Below, in pieces: positions 9,347 to 22,490 of a DNA stretch of 22,517 nt (positions are counted from its first letter, which is position 1; every line of letters starts with the position of its first letter). The stretch spans positions 277,870-300,386 of the forward strand of contig NW_003129364.1 in the NCBI RefSeq assembly GCF_000003605.2, given 5' to 3'. Made by a program: the position numbers and the translations under genes. Source of the DNA: Saccoglossus kowalevskii. Its lineage: Eukaryota; Hemichordata; Enteropneusta; Harrimaniidae. A model generated the notes under the pieces. That model saw only the letters and a list, made by a program, of their open reading frames with translations. It searched no databases and was not told where the DNA came from.

Positions 9347-9426
9347 TTATAAATTAGCCAACTAGCTTATAAATTAGCCAAGTAGCTTATAAATTAGCCA
9401 AGTAGCTTATAAATTAGCAAGCTAGA
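9347..9426. repeat. 20-bp tandem repeat, 4 copies
   Basis: The unit TTATAAATTAGCCAAGTAGC occurs at 9347, 9367, 9387 and 9407. The first copy has AACTAGC in place of AAGTAGC and the last has AGCAAGCTAG. Spacing is exact, so this is a recent expansion within the intron, about 290 bp beyond the PPP1R9 splice donor. Confidence 0.9.
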
Positions 9427-9710
9427 TTATACACAGACCAGTTATGAACTTAGGAGGTTTATAACGTCTAATTTGTGTAACTGAGAACAGTGTAAATGTA
9501 ACAGTCTGGGTACCCAAGTATTTCATTGGAAATCTTGACAAATAAGTCTGGCAATACTATGCCTTCTACATCGTACACTGTATGTAGCAATCAGTTTCCT
9601 TACGAGAGATTAAACAGGAATAGAATCATATAATTTAGTTGCACCAGAACGGCCTGTACAATGAAGAGCAACATACTTCACAGAAAGGGAAAGGGGTATA
9701 ATTTAGAATT

Positions 9711-9716
9711 CTTACC
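9711..9716 (-). other. Splice donor of PPP1R9 exon
   Basis: On the minus strand the sequence reads TTTCAG then GTAAGAATTC, a strong donor. Reading through it would add about 26 codons to a stop near 9635 (VRILNYTPFPFCEV...), which has no family similarity and is taken as intron. Confidence 0.85.
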
Positions 9717-11620
9717 TGAAACAGTGAATCATCCTCTATCTTCCCATTATCCTCCTCGTCAAATGACTCTTCATTGCTGCTACGACTCGGCTCTGCGGAA
9801 TCAGATGCTGCATCACTTTGCTCCTCATCCGATGAATAACTGGGTCTCCTTACACCGTGAGACACAACCTCCTCAGTGAAAGGATCAGATCTGGGAAAGC
9901 GCATCCCAGCATCGGCCGTTTGATATGTATCTTTTGGGACATGCATCTCCTCTTCCAGCGACTTTCTCCTCACTTTCAAATCAATATCACTGCCCCCCAC
10001 AGGAGATAATGGAATCTCAGGTCTATTGTCTCGTAAGATAATAGCTTCAGATGCATTAGATATTTCTCTTTTTGACTCAAGTGTGTCACTTTCTCTAACA
10101 ACTATATAATGTTCAGTCACTTCCGATCCACTTGGACCTGGTTCCTCTAGACTTTCTGTACTTCCTTGAAATCTTTTCACTAAACACTCCACTGATGCTC
10201 TATTCTCCGTCGGCATAGATGGTCCAACATCCATATCATCCGGTGGAGTTGGCGGCAAATCAGGCACTTGTACGTAACTGCGCTTCTGTACTCCCTGGGC
10301 GTCTCTGGGTACGTATGTAGTCACCGCTTGGGGTTTGTGAGCTGGAGAGGAATCTGATGAAGAGGTTGCACTGGATTCCGAAATATGCAAATGACTTGCA
10401 ATAACCTGAGAAGCATCAATCCGTGGACCCGGTTTGCGGCTTGGTGATGTATCCGGAGTTGAAGTATCATCTTTACTCATGGAACTAGAGTCATCGTCAA
10501 AGTCTGGGTAAATATCCGGGTCATTTTTATTCAATGAAATAATCTCTGATGGAGAATATGATGACTGCTTCGGTGTACGAGACCAGCCGCCAACACCACC
10601 ACCACCCGTGTACCTGTCAGGCAAGGATGCTGATTTTGGTTCAATATATGATTTGCTTGATGGTTGGGTGACAGTGGTTGTGTCTGTAGAGACTACTTGG
10701 GGTGGTTGTATAGGAGCGGTTTGTTTTACAGGTTCACCAGTTATTGTTAGACCTGTGATGCTGGTATACCGATCAGGTGATATTATGGTAACTGGTTTGG
10801 TTGGTTTCCAATCCGGACCAACTTCTTTTTTTGGATGCCTAGACTGATTCAAATTTTCATATGATCCACTTCTTGTTGCAGTAGAACGATTAAACAATTC
10901 GTGTGGCCGCTGCGCATCTGCTGATCCAGTGTATCGCTTCTTTGTAACTGGGGGACTGGCTGGGGGGCTGGCACCATAAGCTTTCTTCCTCATTGGTGGA
11001 CTATTGGTAACTTTTTCAAACAAAGCTCTAGCACTAGTAAAGCGGGCACGTAGATCAACTGGCAATTCCTCTGGACTTGCTTTATTTTCACCTTGCTGCT
11101 GAACAGTGGTATTACGGTTTGTGTCTTGTTGTACATGTACATGGTGTCTGGCAACTCTTGTCTCCTGTTTTGGATCAGCTGAGTGGTAACTATCACGCTT
11201 TGGTCGATCTTGAACAGAATCCACTGGTCCAGCAGGACCAACTTGGGTACTTGCAGCCCAACTACCACTCCTAGCCCTGCTACTAGGTATAGTTGCTTTT
11301 GTACCACCAGTCGCGGCAGCTGGTTCATCCGTCATCGACATAAACATGTGCTTCAACTTGCTAACGTTAGCGCCCGTCTTGGCATGGTAATTCATCTCCG
11401 GTCTTGTTACACGGTGTTCTTCCTCGTCGGCGTGAGCAGCATATCCACCAGCTTGCGCTTTCTCATAATCCCTCGTCATTTTGACTTGATCTGATCCGCC
11501 CCTTGCATACGCCGATCGCTGTCCGTCCGTGCTATCAGCTGATCGTGTGAAGTCCGACTTCCGCATATAGTCACTGTTTTGAGATTTCAGAGGTCGGTAG
11601 TTGTCAATTCTTTCCGTCAT
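9716..11620 (-). CDS. PPP1R9: Neurabin/spinophilin homologue, first coding exon (partial gene)
   Basis: This 635-codon exon encodes the N-terminal part of a PPP1R9-family scaffold, which binds F-actin and, through later parts, targets protein phosphatase 1 to actin-rich sites such as synapses and junctions. Three conserved blocks are visible: NVSKLKHMFMSMTDEP (residues 85-100, compare NVNRIKNLFMQMG in neurabin), RARFTSARALFEK (191-203, compare the FTETRKMFER block) and FQGSTESLEE (484-493, compare FNGSTEAL in spinophilin). The rest is Ser/Pro-rich and looks disordered. RRKS (551-554) and RRPS (591-594) fit basophilic kinase sites; the end is acidic. I start at ATG 11620: the frame runs upstream only to an in-frame TAA at 11647-11645, with no other ATG, and position -3 is G. 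The exon ends in CAG followed by GTAAG, phase 0. The PP1-docking RVxF motif, PDZ and coiled coil are not in this exon. Family placement also rests on the sarcoglycan neighbour. A symbol of neurabin versus spinophilin cannot be chosen. Confidence 0.88.
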
Positions 11621-12042
11621 GTCACAACAACATAGCGACAAAAGTTACTTGTAGGCCGCAAAATCATAAACAAATATACGTTTATAACAGGCCCGGTTAT
11701 ACTATCTGTTCAGTAAGTAGCAATCTCGCTCTAAAAACAAATACGAGAAGTGGGGGCTCCCGATCTATTTTGGGTAAGTTCAAATCTGCATACACACATT
11801 CACGATCTACACCTTGCACTTTACTTGGGAGGGTGTTGGCTTTTTACAGTGGCACATACCTGGTGAAAAAAAAACAAGCGTTGTAACGATATTAAGCGAA
11901 CGCTGCCGTTCTTGATAGTTACACGGATTCCGATTTGGCGTTGTTTTGCTAGCGGCCCCCAAAGCTCGACGATACGCCGATGAAAACTATGCCACTGTGA
12001 ATCAGAAGCAAGGATCGTCCGCCATTACTGCACACAACGACG

Positions 12043-12052
12043 TGCGCACGCA
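12043..12052. promoter_or_regulatory. NRF1-like site
   Basis: TGCGCACGCA fits the first ten positions of YGCGCAYGCGCR except one (A for G). It lies in the CpG-rich part of the shared promoter. Prediction from motif only. Confidence 0.35.
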
Positions 12053-12159
12053 ACGGGGGTGGGCCTCAGAACTCTTAAAATAGCCCGGATGTAAAAGTAA
12101 ACAAACGTTTTGTGTAACTCTCTTGTTCTAAAAATACTACACCCAGACTACACCGTAAC

Positions 12160-12268
12160 ATTTATTTATTTAATATTTGTTCGTTTGTTTATGTATTTAT
12201 TCATTTCTTTAGCTGTTTATTTATTCAGCTATTTATTTATTTACCTGTTTATTTATCTATTTATCATC
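12160..12268. repeat. Degenerate (TTTA)n low-complexity tract
   Basis: TTTATTTA-type words with TTTG and TTCA variants form an imperfect microsatellite within the shared promoter, apparently between the two transcription start regions. Confidence 0.8.
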
Positions 12269-12440
12269 AACCTCACTTTCCAGTTGTTTTAATTTAATGT
12301 CTTGTTTGTTGCCAAGATGTTTATTTAAATTATGATAATCTTCTAGTATCTTATTGTAAGACCCTATTTCATTGAAGAAATATCTCATCGCTGATGTATG
12401 GTAAACCTCATGCAGGCTTGATTTATTTTCTGTTTGAGCG

Positions 12441-12456
12441 ATGCATGCTGGGAGAC
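12441..12456 (-). promoter_or_regulatory. ZNF143/Staf-like site
   Basis: Reverse complement GTCTCCCAGCATGCAT contains the CCCAGCATGC core of the ZNF143 (SBS) motif. It lies 98 bp upstream of the sarcoglycan start codon, followed 5 bp later by a YY1-like word, a pairing common at animal bidirectional promoters. Confidence 0.45.
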
Positions 12457-12461
12457 TTCTT

Positions 12462-12472
12462 CCGCCATTTTG
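12462..12472 (-). promoter_or_regulatory. YY1-like site
   Basis: CCGCCATTTTG is the reverse complement of CAAAATGGCGG, a full YY1 core (AAnATGGCG). It is 82 bp before the sarcoglycan ATG, where YY1 sites often mark the 5' UTR or initiator. A shorter match, CCGCCATTACTG, is at 12019-12030. Confidence 0.45.
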
Positions 12473-12553
12473 ACCTTGTTCGTCTGTGTCTTATCAGTTT
12501 CAAAAGAATTCCGATGAAAATTGCTATAATTGTTTTATGAAAACCATACCAAA

Positions 12554-12575
12554 ATGACATACGTGTTTGTTATAG
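12554..12575 (+). CDS. SGCE: Sarcoglycan exon 1
   Basis: Encodes residues 1-7, the start of the signal peptide (MTYVFVI), and ends in phase 1 at ATAG followed by GTAAGT. The ATG has A at -3. It joins exon 2 to make a continuous hydrophobic leader, which supports both start and donor. Confidence 0.8.
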
Positions 12576-15500
12576 GTAAGTCCTGCATTACATTCGGGTT
12601 ATGCCTCGTGATAACGAAAATACTTCAAAAAAAGTGTGTAATTAAATAGTGTCAGTGTTGGTTGTACCATGGAGCTCCGTTGTACTGAGACACATCGTAC
12701 ACTTTTCAAGCTCAGAATGCAAATAGCTGTAATAACCCTATTCTACAATAGTCTTTATTCGTTATCATCTTCATTTCTTGCACCACATGAACATTTTTTA
12801 ACATTGCGATAGATGCGAGTTTGGCAGCTTGTCGGTTTAAGCAGGGAGCTCGCTGGTTTAAGTTAACCATTTTTCACATTCCTTTGTTTTACGTGTTGGA
12901 ATAGCCGCGAAACCACGGCTAGTGTTGGAAATGATATACTGCTGTGCATTTCATTATTTACCTGTGAGTTAGCTTGACCTGAATTGACCCATCTATCGAT
13001 TATCGATGTTTTCGTTGAAATATGTCACTGCAGAAAGAATTGTGTGAACGTTCATGGTAATGTAAATTGCTTTGACACTAGTTAATTAAAAGAAAGTGTA
13101 TTATTGGAATTTACTGTGTTCATAATAGACACTTTCCATAGTGTCAGTTTGTTAAGCAATAGAATCAATACACATACATTTGAAGAATGCAAGTACACAT
13201 TAGTCGTGTTCAGACTATGCCAAGTACGGGCTTAAGTTTTAAGTAGGTATTTTCGTATTGGCTAGATCCAATTGCGTCCATGCACAGGAGGAAACAGCAA
13301 TTAGCAGGAGCTAACGAATGGCCAAAACTTGTGAGGAATATACAAATCTTCAGTCATTTTAACTACCGGTATGATTACTCAGTACATTAACCAAGAAGGT
13401 ATACCGTTAGTTAGTTCTATGGTTAGAAAACAATAATAAATCATATTCAGAAAGTGCAAATTGCAGAATAACAGGAAGTAGTCTGAAGTTCTCTTCGACA
13501 GTTCATTTTTTCTCAAAAATTATGTCACTACAAGTGTGTGCATTGATTTTCATGTTGAAAATGGCATACTGAAATAAACAGTTACATGTATGAATATAAT
13601 AGTAAATCTTCTAAGTTGACATCGAATATAATGGTGTTTTTGGTGTGACTTATCACAGATGTGCAATGGTCATCATCTTTTTTCTGACTGGGAACTGCTC
13701 TGTCTAGCTAGTCTATGTGAATGAATATGTCAATTCTCTCATCTTTTTTAGTGAAATTTGTTTTGTTGTTGAATAATATAACTTCAATTCCTGTTTTTGA
13801 TTCCATACGTTTCGTGATATCGTAGTTTTGATGTCTGTGTGTTTTTTTTGTGGTGTAAATGGCTGTGCTTTATAGTAGTATACAATGCCTGTTTTTCACA
13901 GTGAATCTATGCATATTTTAATTCTTGACTTCTGTTACGACTCTGAATTTGAATAATTACACCTCAATAGTTCTGCTTTTGGCTTTCCATAAAGGCCTTT
14001 AACTTTTATCTTGTCTGTTTTGTGTACTTGTACATTGAATTGACCACATAATTGTTAACTAAATCTTTCCAACTTCTTAACGAAATGTAGTCAAAATCTA
14101 CTCTTACATCACTAACAGTTTAATTCCTAATAAAATTTTTGACGAACACTGTTGTCAGTGTCCTCACAATGCTTTACGTGTACCATCAAATCAAGGAAAA
14201 CTAGAGGTTATATGACATTCTATGTTGAATTGTTCATCAATTTCTATGTTACTACCCTGGTAATATGCAAATTAGCCACCAAGCTTCAGTACTGACAGAA
14301 CACTGACATGAAGGTGTAGCAAAAACAATAACCACCATTTGCTGTGATTTTCCATTACAGGAATCATCCTGGTAGTCATTCCAGCCACAGTCAATGGTCA
14401 GAGTGTAGCAGTTGTAGGCAAAAACTTCCATTATCAAATACTACGTCGAACTTATTTTGATCCCAGTAAGTATGATATTAAAAAAAAATTTATTGTGAGG
14501 TTATCATGAGAATACTACATACATGTAGTTCTTGCGTTTGATGTAAACAAATTTTTGAATATTAATTAATGTTGGTTGCATAGTTTACCCCAAGTAAGAA
14601 TAAATTAAAATGTTCTAATGAGTACAGGTACGTTTTGGAACAAATGCAGAAACGGCTTTTAATGGAAAGATAAATTCAATTTTTTATGCTACTTGTATGT
14701 GTATAATACTGTATGTTATATAAATTTTGAAATTGTCTACAAAAATTTGCTTACTGATCAACTTCATCGACTGACTTTATTTTTCAAGGGACAAATTTAA
14801 GTACAGTATGCAATAGGTTCAAGTTCTTTTGCTGCTATCATAGATGTGCCTAGACATAGAATGTATTTTGAATGAATATTTCAGTGTTGCACAGAAAACA
14901 ACTATGTGAATACTGGTAGTACAATTTTTTCTGTCCCTCCTGTAATGCTTTGGCATGAAAAAATAGAATATAGTGTACATAGAAACCTAAAAGTAAGTAG
15001 TGTTAGGATAGCTTGATGAAAATACTGTTCATGGTGAAGCAAATACCGATATATTGATGAATGAATGAAATTTGCATACTAACAGATGCACCATGATTGC
15101 ATTTACTCTGTAGTACCAGATAGTGCTGTTTACTTCAAAGCAAGTAGTACAGGTAAACCTGGTCTTCCAGCATGGTTGAAGTATATTCAGGAAGACCCGA
15201 AAATGGACACTGCATATCTATATGGTACTCCTACTCCATCTGATATTGGGACAGCTTCAATTGAGGTACATACATGTATATATGTTTTCATATTTTGGCT
15301 TGACTGAGTTCATTTATTCTCTAACAAGTTTTCCACCTATGCTAATGCGACAAATCTTACTTCTTCTGATTTCCTGGTCTATAACGGAATATTTAGAAGA
15401 AAAATTAATTTCTTATTAAAACAAACCATCAAGATTGATTGATATAATTTTAATGTAGCCATATTCAGTCAAGTCCCATCGAAAACTAAAAATATTCACT

Positions 15501-18500
15501 TGTTAGCGACTTAAGACGTCAAAGACATAAAAATACATGGTACGGTTGGGGCAGCAATTTGTACTTTCACTGTTCAAGCTGTAGCTGTAATCAAATATAT
15601 TTCCTGAGTTTATGAAAAAATGGCAACATCTTCAATGTGAATCCGTTATCTTGTATTTCTTTCACCAAAGTTTAACAAGTATCAGTAAGTGAAGAAACTG
15701 TTTTCTTGTTAGTATTTCTATGGCATCTGTCTGAGAGACACTTGTATGATTAGCTTGTTTGTTGGTGTGTTTGCATAACAATTGATTTGGACACTGGCAC
15801 TTAAAATTATTAGTGATGTGACACTAACTATTAGACAAAATTATTAGTGAGTGAGTGTTTGAGACAACAGAAAAAAAAAAAGTTGTTTAAAAACACCACC
15901 AAACCCTTCTCGCAACCTTAAAGTATTTCAGTTTTCAATCATCTGCTGTGTGATGGTTTTTTTTTCAGTAATATTGTGTATATAATAATTTTTTACGTTT
16001 AATAATTTGTTATATTTTGTAGATTGTAGCCTTCAATGCTGACACGTATGACACTAAAATACTAGCTATAACAATATCTGTAGAAGAAAATCATGGTAAG
16101 AATTATTCATAGCTTTGTGTGTCTTATTTATTTATCTAAGATAGAATCAATCTAATGCTCGGGGACTACAACATTTTTGTTTGTGTCTCAAATCTATACA
16201 GTCACATACAAATTCTTTTAAGGCCTTCCTCCCCAGCAGTCAAGAAGTGACTTAACTTAATTTTGGGGCTCCATTTTGACTGAAGGTTCATACAAAATAA
16301 GTCCTGTTAAGAGGGCACACTGCTCGTGTCACTCGATGATGAATCTGCTACTAGTTACTGCAAGGTTACCATGTCCTGGAATTTATACTGAGGACAGGAA
16401 CAAGACACTGTGCCATTAGTAATATCCCCACCTATATGTAATAATTTTATAACTACATCTTATGGGGCTGGCAGTATAAGGGTTATAAATAATAGTTGTT
16501 CAGTGTTGTAATAAAATATACAAGTATGTGTTCCTGTTGATTAAATTTACAAACAATGTTGCCAAAGCAGATCATGAGCTGTGCTGATCTGACAAACTTG
16601 TCATTGCAGTTGTCAAAACTGCAAACAAATTAGATCACTGTGTGCAGGCCTATTGAATAACTATAAACCACCATACACTGTTGGTACCTCTCAGTTGTGC
16701 AATGAATATATTATCATTACATATTCTTATTTGTTAGTTCCAAATAGTTACTTTGTGACATTCAACGTCACCAACAAGGATGTAGGAGATATGTACAGTC
16801 CTGATCCCAACTCTGGTAAAATGACTATAGATGCGTTTGTGGGCACTGTGAAGACGATATGGTCTGATGCACAGAATCTAGCAGTGGCCGATATCACATC
16901 ATCCCTAGATGCTGGAGGACGTGTACCTATACCTGGACAACCAACTGGGTATGTACAAACCATTGATCAATATCAGTGGCAACTAGATGATCTGTTACGC
17001 CAATAATTCCAATCTTAGAAGGTGAATGAATATACTGAACCCACCATAGAGGGCAGTGTTCACTAAGATATAAATCAATACTCAAGCTTGAAACATGAAT
17101 ATTTTTATGGGTAAGACACGAGTTGCCTAAAACTGGTTCCCAGGGAATGTTGAGTTATTTACCCAGTACGGCTAAAATGCTTATACTTGTAAGCCTGCCT
17201 CTCAGTTTCATAAGTGTACACGCTTATAATGGCGAAATTACAATAGGTGCTCTAAAAAGGAACTCCAATTTCATATACAGTCAAACCTCATTATAACGAA
17301 AAGCATTGGACCAACGTAAACAGTTTGTTATAACCGTAGTTTTTTATAACCAATTACCAATTAGCCTCTAGGGGACGCTTTTCAAACACATGATGGCTGT
17401 CGGACACCCCCCCCCCCCTCCGATTTCAGCACAAAACATGTACACAAGACACATACTTTCACATGAGAATACAGTTTTATTACTATTGTACCACTCCATC
17501 TTACAGAAACAGTTTGCAATGGAGGTTGACTTGACTTTGACCCAAGACGAGTGTATCATGTCGATGGCATCTTTAATGTTGATAATCGTCAGATTTTCAC
17601 AGGCATCAAAGGGAACAAGCATTCTCTCGACTACCCGTCTACTGTAATGACTTTTGAAATTTTTTATAACCCCATATCCATATCCATCGGCTGCAATTTT
17701 GACGTTGTGTTTGGCGGCAAAAACACAAGTTTGATTGATGTCAAATTACTGACAACAGGATGGGCGAGACAGTTGTCAACAAACATCAACATTTTTCGTT
17801 TTTCAAAAGTGAATTTTCTGTCTTGTTTATGAAGCCAGTCTTGAAATAAATCACTCTTCATCCAGGCTTTTCTATTTGCTGCGTAATCGACAGGAAGGGC
17901 ATCCAAACACCAAGGACGAGCGGTTTCAACTTTTCTAAGCCATCCATGTTAGCGCATAACATCACTGTTATTCGCTCTTTACTCTTTTTACCGACAGAAC
18001 ACCTCTTATTTTTTAAAGCCAGCGCCTTATCTGGCACGAGTCAAAAAAACAAACCAGTCTCGTCCGCGTTGAACACATCTTTCGGGTGGTACACTTCGAG
18101 CAAGTTAGGGAGTGAAGGCGTCATCTACAGTACCGGTAGTCTGAATAAGGGACGCAGCCTCGCCACACACAGATTTAAATGTGATACCATGGCAACCTTT
18201 AAAACGTTCCAACCAACCATTGCTAGCTTTAATTTCAGGATGACCCATTTTCTCTGCAAGATCTTCAGCTTTGGTTTGTAATACTGGTCCTCCGCTAGCA
18301 ATATTTTGCGGCCGTGCAGTGGTGAACCATTTTAGTGGTGCTTCCTCCACATCATCGACAGCCGAGAAACAAAATCGTTTACGACTCGGAGCAAACAAGC
18401 CGTGTTCGAACATCTCTTTTATCCGAGATTTTTTTTTTTAAATTGTAGAGAGCGTACTCAGTTTGACATCAAACTTTCGGCAAACATCACCATGACGAAG

Positions 18501-21500
18501 ACCTGATTCAATAGCTTGAATCGGCGTTTAATGCGGGTGTTCGACATGGTGAAGTCAACACTTTGCGTCTTTGTGTTCATTCATAAAAAATCACATCCAT
18601 AATCTTATGTGATTTTATAGTCAGACAAGCATTGTTCGAGGTGTTAAAATTGACTGGACAGGTTAATTGTACGCAAACAGTCTTGTATGCATTGTTTATT
18701 ATGCACCACACCGGATCTTAGCCAGATGTTATGATCGTAATTATCGAGGCCACTCAGGCATTTGTTCGTTATAAATGTAAACAACCCATTGTTCTCAGAC
18801 GAAAAACAAGTCGCTGCAACAGGGTTTTTGTAATAAGCATTGTCGTATAAACGATGCCCATTGCATAGGAAAGTAAGCATTTCAAACGAGACCTTTGTTC
18901 GTTCGTTCGTTCGTTCGTTGTAAACGTTTTTTTCTTGTAACTGAGTTTGTACTAATGAGGTTTGACTGTACTTAGTTATACAGTTATATACCATTTTACC
19001 ACCAGAATTTTTCTGCACTTTTTACTTATATTCTTCAATATTTCCGGAAATGAACTCAATTTTCAGTTTTTACTCGAAAAACTTGGCTATTTTTGTTTCA
19101 ATTTTCTGAAGACTATAAATGAGACTATTTTGTTAATTTGGAATGAAAAGAGGGAACAGGTGGTGAAAGGGCTAAGCTGTTAAATTTTTGCTGCTAGGAA
19201 TTTCCCAGATTCATGGTACTAATGTGTCTGAATCCTTGTCTTTATGACCCCAGTTTGATTTTTACTGACTGTACCACTTGCATAATTGAGTTGATTTACT
19301 GTAAACAAGTACAGTAAAACTATGGAAAGCAAGCTTCATCAGTGTTTTTATACGTTTGATTTCAGTGTTGTTATTCAGATTGGTTCTCAGTCTGATTTTT
19401 CTAGTGGCATTAAGAATGCGGCAGTCTCTCCGTGTGAGGCTAGTTTCCAAATATTTACTGATAATGGCTTTGACATTAATTGGTGTTATTTCAACACAAC
19501 GGTAAGTATCTCACACTTTGTCACATCTTGTTAGTTTCATGTAGCAAGTTCTGGTTATCATCTTAAATTCTTGATTTTCCAATGTTGAAGTAATACGCTT
19601 TGTTTACCCAGGGTATAACCCTTTAACGCAGTATTTCCGCTGTAAACCACATCTTTTTTCCTCCCGTGTGCGAAGTACACAAACTAGTAAATAAAGTATT
19701 CCATTTTTGTACTTCATGCCTCCGATACCCTTCAGCACACAGGAATTCTTTCTAAGCTTCTTCGATTTTTTTTGTTTTCATAGTCTGAAAATGGATATCG
19801 ACTATGGCAATCATTCACATTTTTTTTGATTTTCCTATACCGATCTAAAAATAAATCAATGTAGCCAACTATTTAACAATTTAAATTAGTTATTATGATT
19901 ATTCATTCAATTTTCTCATCAGGTTAAAGAAATGAATGACAAGTCCACTATTAACCCTTCCCCTGTGGTTCTTGGTGCAGTCTATGTTGCACCTGTTTTG
20001 ACTGTGGAAGAAAGAGATCTGACAACTGAATTCATATTGGTTGTTATAGTGCCATTAGCTGTCGCTATTGTCTTGGCTATAATATTAAGTTATATCATGT
20101 GTGCTAGACGTGAGGGAGTGTAAGTATATGTCTCTATTCTGTTAGAATATTTATGTCTATGACAGTCTGCTTCTCATAGGGAAATATGTAGATTATAGTG
20201 CTTATTTGTTGTTTATAGTGTTAAATCAAGAAAGTTTTGCTTCAAGTGTTTTAGGCTTGTGTTAAGTTACCACTGTGGAATAGAAAAATATACTTAGAGT
20301 GAAAATTAAATAATCTAAAACAATTACTAAAGTCTTCTGAAGTTTACATACAATCTAGAAACCTGCCCAAACCACCATAGATTCATAGGAACTTCTATCA
20401 GAATGACTACTAGACTTAGCAAAGCTATTCCAATTTATCATAGGCATAGGAAAGTTTCTTTCTATAGACTATCGTTGTACAAAAATTTAAAGTTCTATGC
20501 ATTACTCACTGTACCGGTAATCACTATTTTGTGTTCTGATGTTTGGGACTGCTGAATCAATAACATTGCCATTCATAAATTTATACAATTAGATAAAGTA
20601 AATTAAACAGGAAATGCATCGTCTATTGGTATTCAATAATATGCTCCTCTGTATTAATTTGATGTCTCCTGTTAATTTGACACGTTCCAATCATGAGACT
20701 CGCATAGCAAGCAAGTCAGCAACTAAGCTGGCAATATTGTTGTTTTGGTGTACAAAACAATATGGCAGTGAATCATTATGAAAAATGGATAGACATTTAG
20801 GACAATTTAAAGTGAACACAGACAATGAGGATTACTTCTTGCCCACTCAATGCCACCTCATATTTGAATTTACTCCAGCATGCCCAAATAATGTATCTTT
20901 GTAGAACAGGAATTACATTTTTGTGAAGTATGTTTCAAGTGTTTACATTGTCTGCTCAAGGCCTTCACAGACATACTAAAATTAATATTAAGAAAGAGCA
21001 TCTGTTAACAGTGTGCTGAAATTTTATATGAGCAATAGGTGATTTTCCGTACAATTGCGTCTGCCGCAAAAATCGAACGATTTGATTTTGAACTAGAATT
21101 TCTTTATTTCGTAGCTTACATTGACCAGCCGATCTTGGACAGAGGAATATTGCTTCCGAATACCCTTACTTAATCGAAATTGCCTATCATCAAATGTGGA
21201 CAGCACATTATTAAGCATGGAAATGTTCCCGAAATACTTTCGCGTTTGTCGAATCCCACGCGATGTTTGACGCGACTACGACGCTATGACCTTTGTTTGT
21301 CCTGTTTTTACGTTCGATTTCACGCATAACGCGCGATTCTCGCAGTGTACGGAAAATGGTCTATTTGAATGAACCTAATGTAGGTGTATGGTTGTGTATA
21401 TTTAGTATTAAATGAATACCAGCATAGTCTAACAAATTAACCATACAATAATTTTAAATCGAGAAGTGTCCAAATCTCATCTTTGTGATATATTTCAAAC

Positions 21501-22490
21501 AATTTAATTTTCCATTCCAGAGAAAACCCTTTGTATTTTTGTATGATTTTCATTTTTCCCTTCATGTCTTTCCTTTTTGGCAGGGAGAAGAGAATTAATG
21601 CCACCCCAACGTAAGGAACATTTATTCTTTTGTTTTTATGATTTTGTACTTATCCCATGTCAGCCATTTTGTTTTTCACCTTTATATGAGTTGTATAGGT
21701 TTCTATAAATAGACGTCAGTGTAATGTTGTGATGTATTTTACTGTTGTTTTAATTTGCCTGGGCATTTGTGAGAGTAATGAATTGCTTGACACAAAAAAC
21801 TTGTCGGCTACAATGTATCTCAATTACTGTGAAATACTTTATTTTAGCTGGAATTAAGTTTCGCTGAAAATGCAATTTGGGTGTTTTGTATGGAATTTAT
21901 TTTCACTGATTTTTGACAAGTTGAATGTGAAATATACAGAAAAAAGTTATATTGGCTGGATTTTATTTTCATGGAATCATCTTTTCAGCAAAAATAGCGA
22001 AAATAAAGTATTCTACAGTATGGAAATATTTAGTTGAAGAGCCATAATTTTGAAGTGTTAAACTAACAGTAGCACAGATGTCTGGTCCATGGCAATAAAA
22101 AACAAAACCCCAGTTTCACAGGTGACATAATTGAAATGAGTCTTCACACACCATGTGTCAAAAAAATCTTTTTAGTTATTATATAAGCCCATTTTCTACT
22201 GTGATACAATAAAGCGTGTCAAGAATGGAGTACTATTTGTGTCTAGACAAGTTTTACTGTTCCATACAAGTGTTGAATTTTAAGAAGATTCACAGTATTA
22301 ATTTCTTTACATTATTTATTGTCTGTAGTGTACAGTTGACTCACCACAGTCACATTAAAAATGCAACAAAGGAACTGAGAGATATGTCTATGAGAAGGGA
22401 AGGTGCTCAGCCTTTATCTACACTACCAGCGTTCAGACTGTCTCCAACTCCCGGAAGTCGTACTGGTCAACATTCCCCACCACAGGACAG
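12554..22490 (+). CDS. SGCE: Alpha/epsilon-type sarcoglycan, exons 1-9 (3' end missing)
   Basis: A single-pass membrane glycoprotein of the dystrophin-associated sarcoglycan complex. Joining 12554-12575, 14361-14465, 15114-15265, 16023-16095, 16738-16948, 19366-19501, 19923-20119, 21584-21610 and 22329-22490 gives an open frame of 361 full codons plus two bases. Residues 1-20 form a signal peptide. Residues 21 to about 117 are the cadherin-like part, with LPAWLKYIQ and YLYGTPTP matching PGWLRYIQ and VLYGSPTA of human SGCE. Then come [12 protein letters not shown] (compare SALDRGGRVPLP), an INWC block, a transmembrane helix (about 270-292) followed by CARREGV-EKR, and tail motifs ATKELRDM and PLSTLPAF. 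Sequons are at N127 and N231. Only two cysteines (211, 228) lie in the membrane-proximal ectodomain where vertebrate forms have four. Human SGCA and SGCE are both similar; a pre-duplication SGCA/SGCE orthologue is likely, so the symbol is a family label. Confidence 0.93.
12576..14360 (+). other. Sarcoglycan intron 1
   Basis: Begins GTAAGT and ends TTCCATTACAG. It is 1785 bp, AT-rich, with no recognisable gene or element. Its length and position make it a candidate for regulatory sequence, but no specific site is claimed. Confidence 0.75.
14361..14465 (+). CDS. SGCE: Sarcoglycan exon 2
   Basis: Phase 1 in, phase 1 out. It completes the signal peptide ([13 protein letters not shown], likely cleavage after G20) and begins the mature ectodomain. 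LRRTYFDP at its end matches the LEREYF block of vertebrate epsilon-sarcoglycan. Donor is GTAAGTATGA. Confidence 0.88.
14466..15113 (+). other. Sarcoglycan intron 2, with a perfect branch-point consensus
   Basis: 648 bp. It contains TACTAAC at 15077-15083, identical to the branch-point consensus, 30 bp before the TAG acceptor at 15111-15113, with a pyrimidine-rich stretch between. An earlier AG (15084-15085) directly after the branch site would break the frame. Confidence 0.75.
15114..15265 (+). CDS. SGCE: Sarcoglycan exon 3
   Basis: Phase 1 in, phase 0 out. Residues 43-93 include [12 protein letters not shown] and [12 protein letters not shown], the strongest match to the cadherin-like domain (PGWLRYIQRTP, VLYGSPTAENVG in human SGCE). 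The start at 15114 is set by phase and by the branch point at 15077-15083. Donor GAG followed by GTACAT is weaker than the others. Confidence 0.92.
15266..16022 (+). other. Sarcoglycan intron 3
   Basis: 757 bp, AT-rich, ending TTATATTTTGTAG. Nothing recognised apart from short homopolymer runs near 15870 and 15960. Confidence 0.75.
16023..16095 (+). CDS. SGCE: Sarcoglycan exon 4
   Basis: Phase 0 in, phase 1 out. Residues 94-117 ([20 protein letters not shown]) align with the [21 protein letters not shown] strand of vertebrate epsilon-sarcoglycan. Donor is GTAAGA. Confidence 0.88.
16096..16737 (+). other. Sarcoglycan intron 4
   Basis: 642 bp, ending TTCTTATTTGTTAG. The part from 16205 to 16480 is less AT-rich and may be an old repeat fragment, but no ends or family could be defined. 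Confidence 0.7.
16738..16948 (+). CDS. SGCE: Sarcoglycan exon 5
   Basis: Phase 1 in, phase 2 out. Residues 118-188 include the sequon N127-V-T, the block [10 protein letters not shown] (compare FLGAVKNVW) and [15 protein letters not shown] (compare NITSALDRGGRVPLP). The N-I-T sequon I recall for vertebrate SGCE is D-I-T here. The donor is GTATGT; reading on reaches a stop at about 17006. Confidence 0.93.
17278..18968 (-). mobile_element. Tigger/pogo-type DNA transposon, decayed
   Basis: A 1691-bp element with 16-bp identical terminal inverted repeats (CAGTCAAACCTCATTA at 17278-17293 and its complement at 18953-18968), flanked by TA at 17276-17277 and 18969-18970, the target site of Tc1/mariner transposons. 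The terminal sequence matches the Tigger CAGT-AACCTC signature. It carries a broken minus-strand transposase, antisense to the sarcoglycan gene, and a (GTTC)n run at 18897-18916. It is shorter than intact Tigger elements, so internal deletions are likely. Confidence 0.93.
17500..18547 (-). pseudogene. Tigger transposase pseudogene (CENP-B HTH plus DDE)
   Basis: Pieces of one pogo-family transposase appear in order but in different frames. From 18547: an MSNTRIKRR start, then in another frame [20 protein letters not shown], the first helix-turn-helix. Then 18413-18105, one open frame with [11 protein letters not shown] and [11 protein letters not shown], the CENP-B-type second DNA-binding domain. 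Then [10 protein letters not shown] near 18076-18047 (first catalytic Asp), followed by an in-frame TGA and a frameshift. Then 17906-17664 with [11 protein letters not shown] (second Asp) and [16 protein letters not shown] (third Asp). Then, after another shift, [11 protein letters not shown] and SIANCF at the C-terminus. All three acidic catalytic residues persist, yet at least three frame changes and a stop rule out a working enzyme. Confidence 0.92.
19366..19501 (+). CDS. SGCE: Sarcoglycan exon 6
   Basis: Phase 2 in, phase 0 out. Residues 188-233. [15 protein letters not shown] aligns with GVYVMVGADVPFSSC, and [11 protein letters not shown] with FYIDWCKISLV. Cys211 and Cys228 are the only cysteines; the vertebrate loop carrying two more is shortened. 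N231-T-T is a sequon. Donor is GTAAGT. Confidence 0.92.
19502..19922 (+). other. Sarcoglycan intron 6
   Basis: 421 bp, ending TTCAATTTTCTCATCAG. No element or gene recognised. Confidence 0.75.
19923..20119 (+). CDS. SGCE: Sarcoglycan exon 7 (transmembrane exon)
   Basis: Phase 0 in, phase 2 out. Residues 234-298 hold the juxtamembrane ectodomain and the transmembrane helix [20 protein letters not shown], followed by YIMCARREG, nearly the same as YIMCCRREG in vertebrate alpha- and epsilon-sarcoglycan. One of the two intracellular cysteines is Ala here. Donor is GTAAGT. Confidence 0.95.
20120..21583 (+). other. Sarcoglycan intron 7
   Basis: 1464 bp, ending TCCTTTTTGGCAG. It contains the CpG-richer inverted-repeat element at 21038-21361; nothing else was recognised. 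Confidence 0.75.
21038..21361. mobile_element. TA-flanked MITE in sarcoglycan intron 7
   Basis: Left end GGTGATTTTCCGTACAATTG; right end reverse-complemented GACCATTTTCCGTACACTG. The shared core ATTTTCCGTACA is identical, and TA flanks both sides (21036-21037, 21362-21363). It is 324 bp with many CG dinucleotides against an AT-rich intron and no coding capacity. It looks like a non-autonomous Tc1/mariner-type element. Confidence 0.7.
21584..21610 (+). CDS. SGCE: Sarcoglycan exon 8 (27-nt microexon)
   Basis: Phase 2 in, phase 2 out. It supplies [10 protein letters not shown] at the start of the cytoplasmic tail, matching VEKRNMQTPD of human SGCE. TTTTTGGCAG precedes it and GTAAGG follows. Because it is 27 nt and symmetric, skipping it keeps the frame and removes nine residues just inside the membrane. 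Confidence 0.9.
21611..22328 (+). other. Sarcoglycan intron 8
   Basis: 718 bp, ending ATTTATTGTCTGTAG. It contains the inverted-repeat element at 21825-22020. Confidence 0.75.
21825..22020. mobile_element. MITE-like inverted-repeat element, copy B
   Basis: Left arm TACTGTGAAATACTTTATTT, right arm ending AAATAAAGTATTCTACAGTA. The interior word TTTGGGTGTTTTGTATG is shared with the element at 382-524 in the opposite orientation, so both belong to one family. It is 196 bp and non-coding. Copy B has about 50 bp that copy A lacks. Confidence 0.75.
22329..22490 (+). CDS. SGCE: Sarcoglycan exon 9 (partial or last in window)
   Basis: Phase 2 in. Residues 308-361 include [17 protein letters not shown] (compare [17 protein letters not shown]) and PLSTLPAF (compare PLSTLPVF). 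After residue 361 the sequence reads CAGGACAG then GTACATGT, a possible donor with phase 2. The frame also stays open to the window edge, so the exon may continue. The C-terminal tail and stop lie outside. Confidence 0.85.

Follow-up and report, generated by a model that had tools for sequence, protein, structure and literature searches.

We suggest that a 22,517-nt stretch of DNA from the hemichordate Saccoglossus kowalevskii carries the pre-duplication form of a gene pair that vertebrates have in two copies. This window corresponds to positions 277870-300386 of contig NW_003129364.1, i.e., the right end of the contig, and the coordinates given below are those of the window unless "contig" is stated. 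It contains the first coding exon of a PPP1R9 (neurabin/spinophilin) gene on the minus strand (9716-11620) and, on the plus strand from position 12554, a gene of the alpha/epsilon-sarcoglycan type (SGCA/E). The two genes are divergent, and 933 bp (11621-12553) separate their start codons, just as an initial annotation made from the sequence alone had described them. In the explanation that we favor, PPP1R9 (a scaffold that binds actin and PP1 and has a SAM domain at its C-terminus) and SGCA/E (a dystrophin-complex member and type I membrane glycoprotein) would be transcribed outward from a spacer of less than 1 kb, which most likely works as a bidirectional promoter region. The genome duplications of vertebrates would then have copied the pair, giving SGCE/PPP1R9A and SGCA/PPP1R9B. 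We give the ancestral pair and the shared promoter, taken together, a probability of about 0.6.

The plus-strand gene is an alpha/epsilon-sarcoglycan, and the resemblance is far beyond chance. Nine plus-strand exons join in frame to encode a product of 361 aa that has a signal-peptide-like start, an ectodomain, a single transmembrane helix and a conserved cytoplasmic tail. Coding exon 1 (12554-12575) has its ATG at 12554, encodes the start of the signal peptide and ends in phase 1. It is followed by exon 2 (14361-14465), exon 3 (15114-15265, Sarcoglycan_2), exon 4 (16023-16095), exon 5 (16738-16948, Sarcoglycan_2_C), exon 6 (19366-19501), exon 7 (19923-20119, with the transmembrane helix and MCARREG), exon 8 (21584-21610) and exon 9 (22329-22490), which encodes the cytoplasmic tail as far as ...PLSTLP, the stop codon being past the contig end. 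All eight acceptors have AG and all nine donors have GT. The Pfam matches to Sarcoglycan_2 (6.4e-14) and Sarcoglycan_2_C (1.1e-10) are both above the curated cut-off, the closest solved structure in a PDB search is alpha-sarcoglycan (5.8e-41), and the tail pattern MCxRREG...HH...ELR.M...PLSTLP is present in the alignments. An exon 3 that started at 15086 had a broken frame and was discarded in favor of the acceptor at 15114, which restores it; a Pfam match of a piece of exon 5 to MxiM was considered to be chance.

The gene structure also agrees with that of human SGCA. The intron phases are the same at all eight introns; five of these share the aligned codon exactly, and the other three are displaced by no more than one residue. 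We take three of the human positions to be c.385, c.956 and c.983, and the lengths of exon 4 (73 nt) and exon 8 (27 nt) equal those of the human exons of the same number. The other human positions come from passages in PMC11699685 (c.37 and c.584), PMC8262330 (c.157 and c.748) and PMC6376703 (c.313). The human SGCA numbering that we used agrees with six residues given in the relevant parts of PMC6376703 and PMC11699685, namely A64, A107, S142, C209, R221 and V242.

Two inverted-repeat elements were noticed in the SGCA/E introns. Intron 5 contains what we take to be a Pogo/Tigger-type DNA transposon (17276-18970); its 25-nt inverted ends are 88% complementary, and pieces of DDE_1 and HTH_Tnp_Tc5 lie on the minus strand in a frame interrupted by stop codons. 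A CpG-rich element in intron 7 (21034-21365) has 20-nt ends that are 85% complementary and resembles a small non-autonomous element.

The minus-strand exon (635 codons, ending in phase 0 at a GTAAGA donor) is predicted to be the first coding exon of PPP1R9, and this prediction is firm once exons elsewhere on the contig are counted. Exon 1 was too weak to be identified on its own. It had no match in searches of Pfam and PDB, and its actin-binding-type motif, GANVSKLKHMFMSM, has a short, weak similarity to the actin-binding region of neurabin. The human SGCA, human SGCE, neurabin-I and spinophilin proteins that served as queries or references throughout were written out for the comparison rather than taken from database records. 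When the N-terminus of neurabin-I was compared with exon 1 by tblastn, the E values were 0.004, 0.011 and 0.032 in three successively larger databases. Block (local) shuffles of exon 1 scored as high in 25 of 1000 cases against neurabin-I and in five of 1000 against spinophilin. Consequently, the contig exons were used instead.

The identity of PPP1R9 is firm because an exon with RKVQF and the exons for a SAM domain, all outside the window, share the strand of exon 1 and follow it in the correct order. The part of the contig that was analyzed is 97870-300386. The first of these exons (contig 211293-211397, minus strand) is in phase 0, matching the end of exon 1. It has the pattern R/K-V/I-x-F followed by S..PI.V in the sequence GLPVDVYKDRKVQFSHSPIR, which was found by reading the list of open reading frames against the motif, and which we take to be the PP1-docking motif of the neurabin/spinophilin family. 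A tblastn search with a piece of spinophilin failed to detect this exon, and a 43-aa joined piece that includes it had no match in a PDB search. Two minus-strand exons (contig 155144-155317 and the terminal exon at contig 153801-153959, which has a stop codon at its end) together form the C-terminal SAM domain (SAM_2, 6.5e-9 in Pfam). Their best PDB match is neurabin-1 (2gle, 6.4e-15), and the runner-up is an ETV6 fusion (3e-8). The gene extends leftwards for about 136 kb to contig position 153801, with a first intron of 76 kb; its recognized exons are collinear in the order typical of the family, with N runs between them. The assignment of the two genes to their families in the initial annotation is, therefore, borne out, for the sarcoglycan by Pfam, PDB and the introns and for PPP1R9 by the RKVQF and SAM exons.

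Some additional features of the PPP1R9 region can be mentioned. Several serine-rich open stretches between the RKVQF and SAM exons look like linker exons and may be such. The first intron contains minisatellites at 9347-9431 and 1915-2044, with periods of 20 and 29, respectively. The next recognized gene to the left is PTPN23/HD-PTP on the minus strand (contig about 99051-122359; best PDB match, 1.3e-55).

As to the age of the pair, the window protein is 39.5% identical to SGCE and 32.8% identical to SGCA, and SGCA and SGCE are 44.3% identical to each other (human sequences). Among 335 three-way alignment columns, 64 unite SGCA with SGCE, 42 unite the window protein with SGCE and 20 unite it with SGCA, a comparison of three sequences rather than a rooted tree. 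These sequence comparisons favor a position of the window sarcoglycan outside the SGCA-SGCE duplication. In the 572-Mb assembly (4830 contigs), PPP1R9 exon 1 was found in one place, and exon 3 of SGCA/E was the only place that matched the PF05510 profile; such counts are lower bounds, as diverged copies could escape detection. One detected place per gene and a sarcoglycan outside the SGCA-SGCE split agree with the earlier proposal that the pair predates the vertebrate duplications.

The initial annotation also had the same divergent pair twice in the human genome. We take the strands to be divergent for both SGCE/PPP1R9A (7q21) and SGCA/PPP1R9B (17q21), and the vertebrate genes to be separated by roughly 15 kb in one pair and 250 kb in the other. 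That the genes are vertebrate neighbors is in print. The legend of Figure 9 in PMC10570562 refers to a region of CASD1, SGCE and PPP1R9A that predates the PEG10 insertion, a mouse gene list in PMC7642923 has Col1a2, Casd1, Sgce, Peg10 and Ppp1r9a, and a passage in PMC13135081 places Sgca and Ppp1r9b within the same 100 kb as Col1a1. PEG10 was inserted after the monotreme split, according to a section of PMC3820666. A passage in PMC1790709 counts six sarcoglycans in vertebrates and three in invertebrates, with none found in ascidians. The simplest reading, and a very likely one, is that both vertebrate pairs descend from one ancestral divergent pair, the window being the single invertebrate locus on which this ancestry is based.

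The spacer (11621-12553) is a candidate bidirectional promoter region. Its observed/expected CpG ratio is 1.12; the window has 0.60, and the median for contig 137870-300386 is 0.44. In the latter region, 24 of 1168 N-free 933-bp windows, including those that overlap the spacer, reach the value of the spacer. A passage of PMC2871058 assumes a common promoter for divergent genes that are separated by less than 1000 bp, and the 933 bp found here are within this distance, as measured between start codons and not between transcription start sites. From these sequence features, we consider a promoter shared by PPP1R9 and SGCA/E to be a little better than an even bet.

Several observations weigh against this explanation. 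The CpG enrichment is uneven: the PPP1R9-side half of the spacer has a ratio of 1.20, with 29 CpGs and 46% GC, and the SGCA/E-side half has a ratio of 0.78, with eight CpGs and 30% GC. The ratio then climbs again, to 0.97 over 12501-13000 and 0.93 over 12751-13250. This unevenness fits either one shared promoter or two adjacent promoters, and our joint confidence was lowered because the enrichment is mainly in the PPP1R9 half. PPP1R9 may also have upstream non-coding exons. With roughly 15 kb and 250 kb between their genes, the vertebrate copies would not be held together by a common core promoter. On the left side, no conservation is seen beyond the pair, as the next recognized neighbor there is PTPN23, which is not known from either vertebrate neighborhood; on the right, the contig ends. 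The PDZ and coiled-coil exons of PPP1R9 were not found by tblastn on the analyzed part of the contig, where a 19-kb N run (contig 168570-187929) occupies their expected place; the sole tblastn match for the coiled coil (E = 2.0) turned out to be the SAM/tail exon. A search of the whole genome with the PF17817 profile found no place, and the control genomes were likewise without a match. With spinophilin as the query, three weak matches (36-50% identity) were obtained, all of them on other contigs. Finally, close divergent pairs of this kind are not enriched in non-vertebrate animals, as stated in one part of PMC2871058.

Other features of the spacer and of CpG-rich stretches are as follows. 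There is an ATTT-type tandem repeat at 12160-12264 and, just 5' of the SGCA/E start codon, a short upstream reading frame of eight residues (12514-12540, ATG to TGA). Further CpG-rich stretches of the contig are at 147870-148670 and 250170-250670, the latter in the first intron of PPP1R9, and two stretches of the window that resemble mobile elements have CpG peaks as well. The motif CCGCCAT[TC], which we take to be YY1-like, is present at 12019 and 12462 and nowhere else in contig 137870-300386 (121,463 bases other than N). It was set aside and is not used as evidence: it was picked after 12 motifs had been tried, it contains a CpG, and the shorter CCGCCAT is present six times, four of them outside the spacer. 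An Rfam search of the window had no match.

The ancestry of the pair is common to the favored explanation and to the two strongest rivals, so their odds overlap. The stronger of these rivals is passive retention: an ancestral pair with separate promoters would persist without selection, simply because a spacer of less than 1 kb is rarely broken in slowly rearranging lineages. This account falls somewhat short of an even chance. Selection and inertia fit the present data equally well, and the uneven CpG content of the spacer fits two separate promoters. In yeasts, the conservation of synteny is best predicted by intergene distance, as reported in a passage of PMC2258174. In therians, PEG10 lies between the two genes (PMC7642923, PMC10570562 and PMC3820666, in the sections concerned), which implies that a tight spacer is dispensable. 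However, few stretches of the analyzed contig are as rich in CpG as the complete spacer, and genes that remain neighbors even after their spacing has widened are less expected under pure inertia. The initial annotation had attributed the lasting pairing to a regulatory constraint common to both genes and not to chance. We find no support for that conclusion here, as a single invertebrate locus cannot show an excess of adjacency and a 933-bp gap would seldom be hit by a breakpoint anyway.

The other rival supposes that enhancers of one gene are located inside the other (the 76-kb first intron of PPP1R9 could harbor them, for instance) and that they maintain the linkage instead of a common core promoter. 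The large size of PPP1R9 is in keeping with such an arrangement, as is the separation of the two genes in vertebrates. In mouse bone that had lost one Col1a1 allele, the list of 51 up-regulated genes was headed by H1f9, Sgca and Ppp1r9b, all from the Col1a1 region, according to a portion of PMC13135081, and the joint rise of Sgca and Ppp1r9b suggests that the two can respond as one domain. However, the effect is driven by the Col1a1 locus and H1f9 responds too, so it is not specific for the pair; by 24 weeks, the up-regulation persisted for H1f9, Sgca and Dcc alone, and Ppp1r9b was no longer confirmed (same portion of PMC13135081). On balance, we regard distal elements of this type as unlikely to be the explanation.

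The two remaining rivals can be dealt with briefly. One might imagine, with a single invertebrate locus in hand, that the genes became adjacent independently in this lineage and in vertebrates; yet the two families are the same, the divergent orientation is taken to be common to both vertebrate copies, and we estimate that two given genes among about 20,000 would be divergent neighbors with a frequency on the order of one in tens of thousands, which makes convergence highly improbable. A misassembly that fused two unrelated loci is the least credible account of all: the scaffold has long N runs, one of them stopping just short of the window, which itself reaches to the contig end, but the spacer and both first exons are without any N, the PPP1R9 exons stay collinear on one strand over 136 kb even though N runs intervene, and it would be odd for a false join to reproduce the vertebrate order by accident.

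The favored explanation can be extended to a more speculative one. In it, the genes for two proteins of neuromuscular or synaptic membranes, namely the synaptic actin/PP1 scaffold and the glycoprotein from the dystrophin complex, may have been co-regulated by the bidirectional region from the deuterostome ancestor onward or even earlier, with both vertebrate copies keeping a common regulatory domain and PEG10 inserting into, and imprinting, a pair that was already co-regulated. We find this extension doubtful, more so than either of the two strongest rivals.

A side observation concerns the source of the DNA. Among bilaterians, a code in which ATA is Ile and AAA is Lys points to a hemichordate; chordates and most protostomes read ATA as Met. 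The mitochondrial COX1 gene (positions 13523-14863 of a 17,037-base contig) has seven internal TGA codons, five of them at tryptophan. Compared with a COX1 chain from PDB, its ATA codons are at I (five), V (two) and L (one) and at M in none of the eight cases, and its ATG codons are at M in 17 of 19. A single AAA is at K; AGA and AGG do not occur. These few codons suggest a code with ATA as Ile, as in hemichordates. The non-chordate-like COX1 codons and the 33-40% identity of the window protein to human SGCA and SGCE fit the invertebrate origin that had been supposed from the sequence. Scans of viral contigs with both proteins found no relative.

If this ancestry, which is well supported, is correct, then two human disease loci would share one ancestral divergent pair, namely SGCE (myoclonus-dystonia), with the imprinted PEG10 and PPP1R9A alongside, and SGCA (limb-girdle muscular dystrophy). 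An invertebrate would offer the unsplit arrangement for study, and the question of whether deep microsynteny is due to common regulation or to inertia could be put to the test with it. The retention of the pair may be due to a shared promoter, to shared distal elements or to the inertia of a short spacer. No paper on the PPP1R9-SGCA/E pair outside vertebrates was among the matches listed for the open-license literature, exclusive of supplements. Irimia and colleagues reportedly published genome-wide lists of conserved metazoan gene pairs in 2012, and this pair may already be listed there.

The closest known systems are the two vertebrate loci. Both SGCE/PEG10/PPP1R9A (human 7q21, mouse chromosome 6) and SGCA/PPP1R9B (human 17q21, mouse chromosome 11) have the same neighbors as the window pair and are presumably divergent as well. 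The genes of the former are about 250 kb apart, whereas no gene is recognized between those of the window, where the distance is 933 bp. At the latter, PPP1R9B encodes spinophilin, which is not known to have a SAM domain, whereas the window PPP1R9 keeps it. Both vertebrate copies presumably exceed the 1-kb definition of a bidirectional promoter. The SGCE/PPP1R9A locus is also imprinted in eutherians and has the PEG10 insertion in therians (PMC10570562 and PMC3820666, in the parts that deal with it), and the histone gene H1f9/HILS1 is in the same region as SGCA/PPP1R9B (a passage in PMC13135081). A further related class is that of bidirectional promoters and conserved divergent gene pairs, for which PMC2871058 gives the definition of less than 1000 bp; the window pair is likewise divergent and that close, and its spacer is CpG-enriched.

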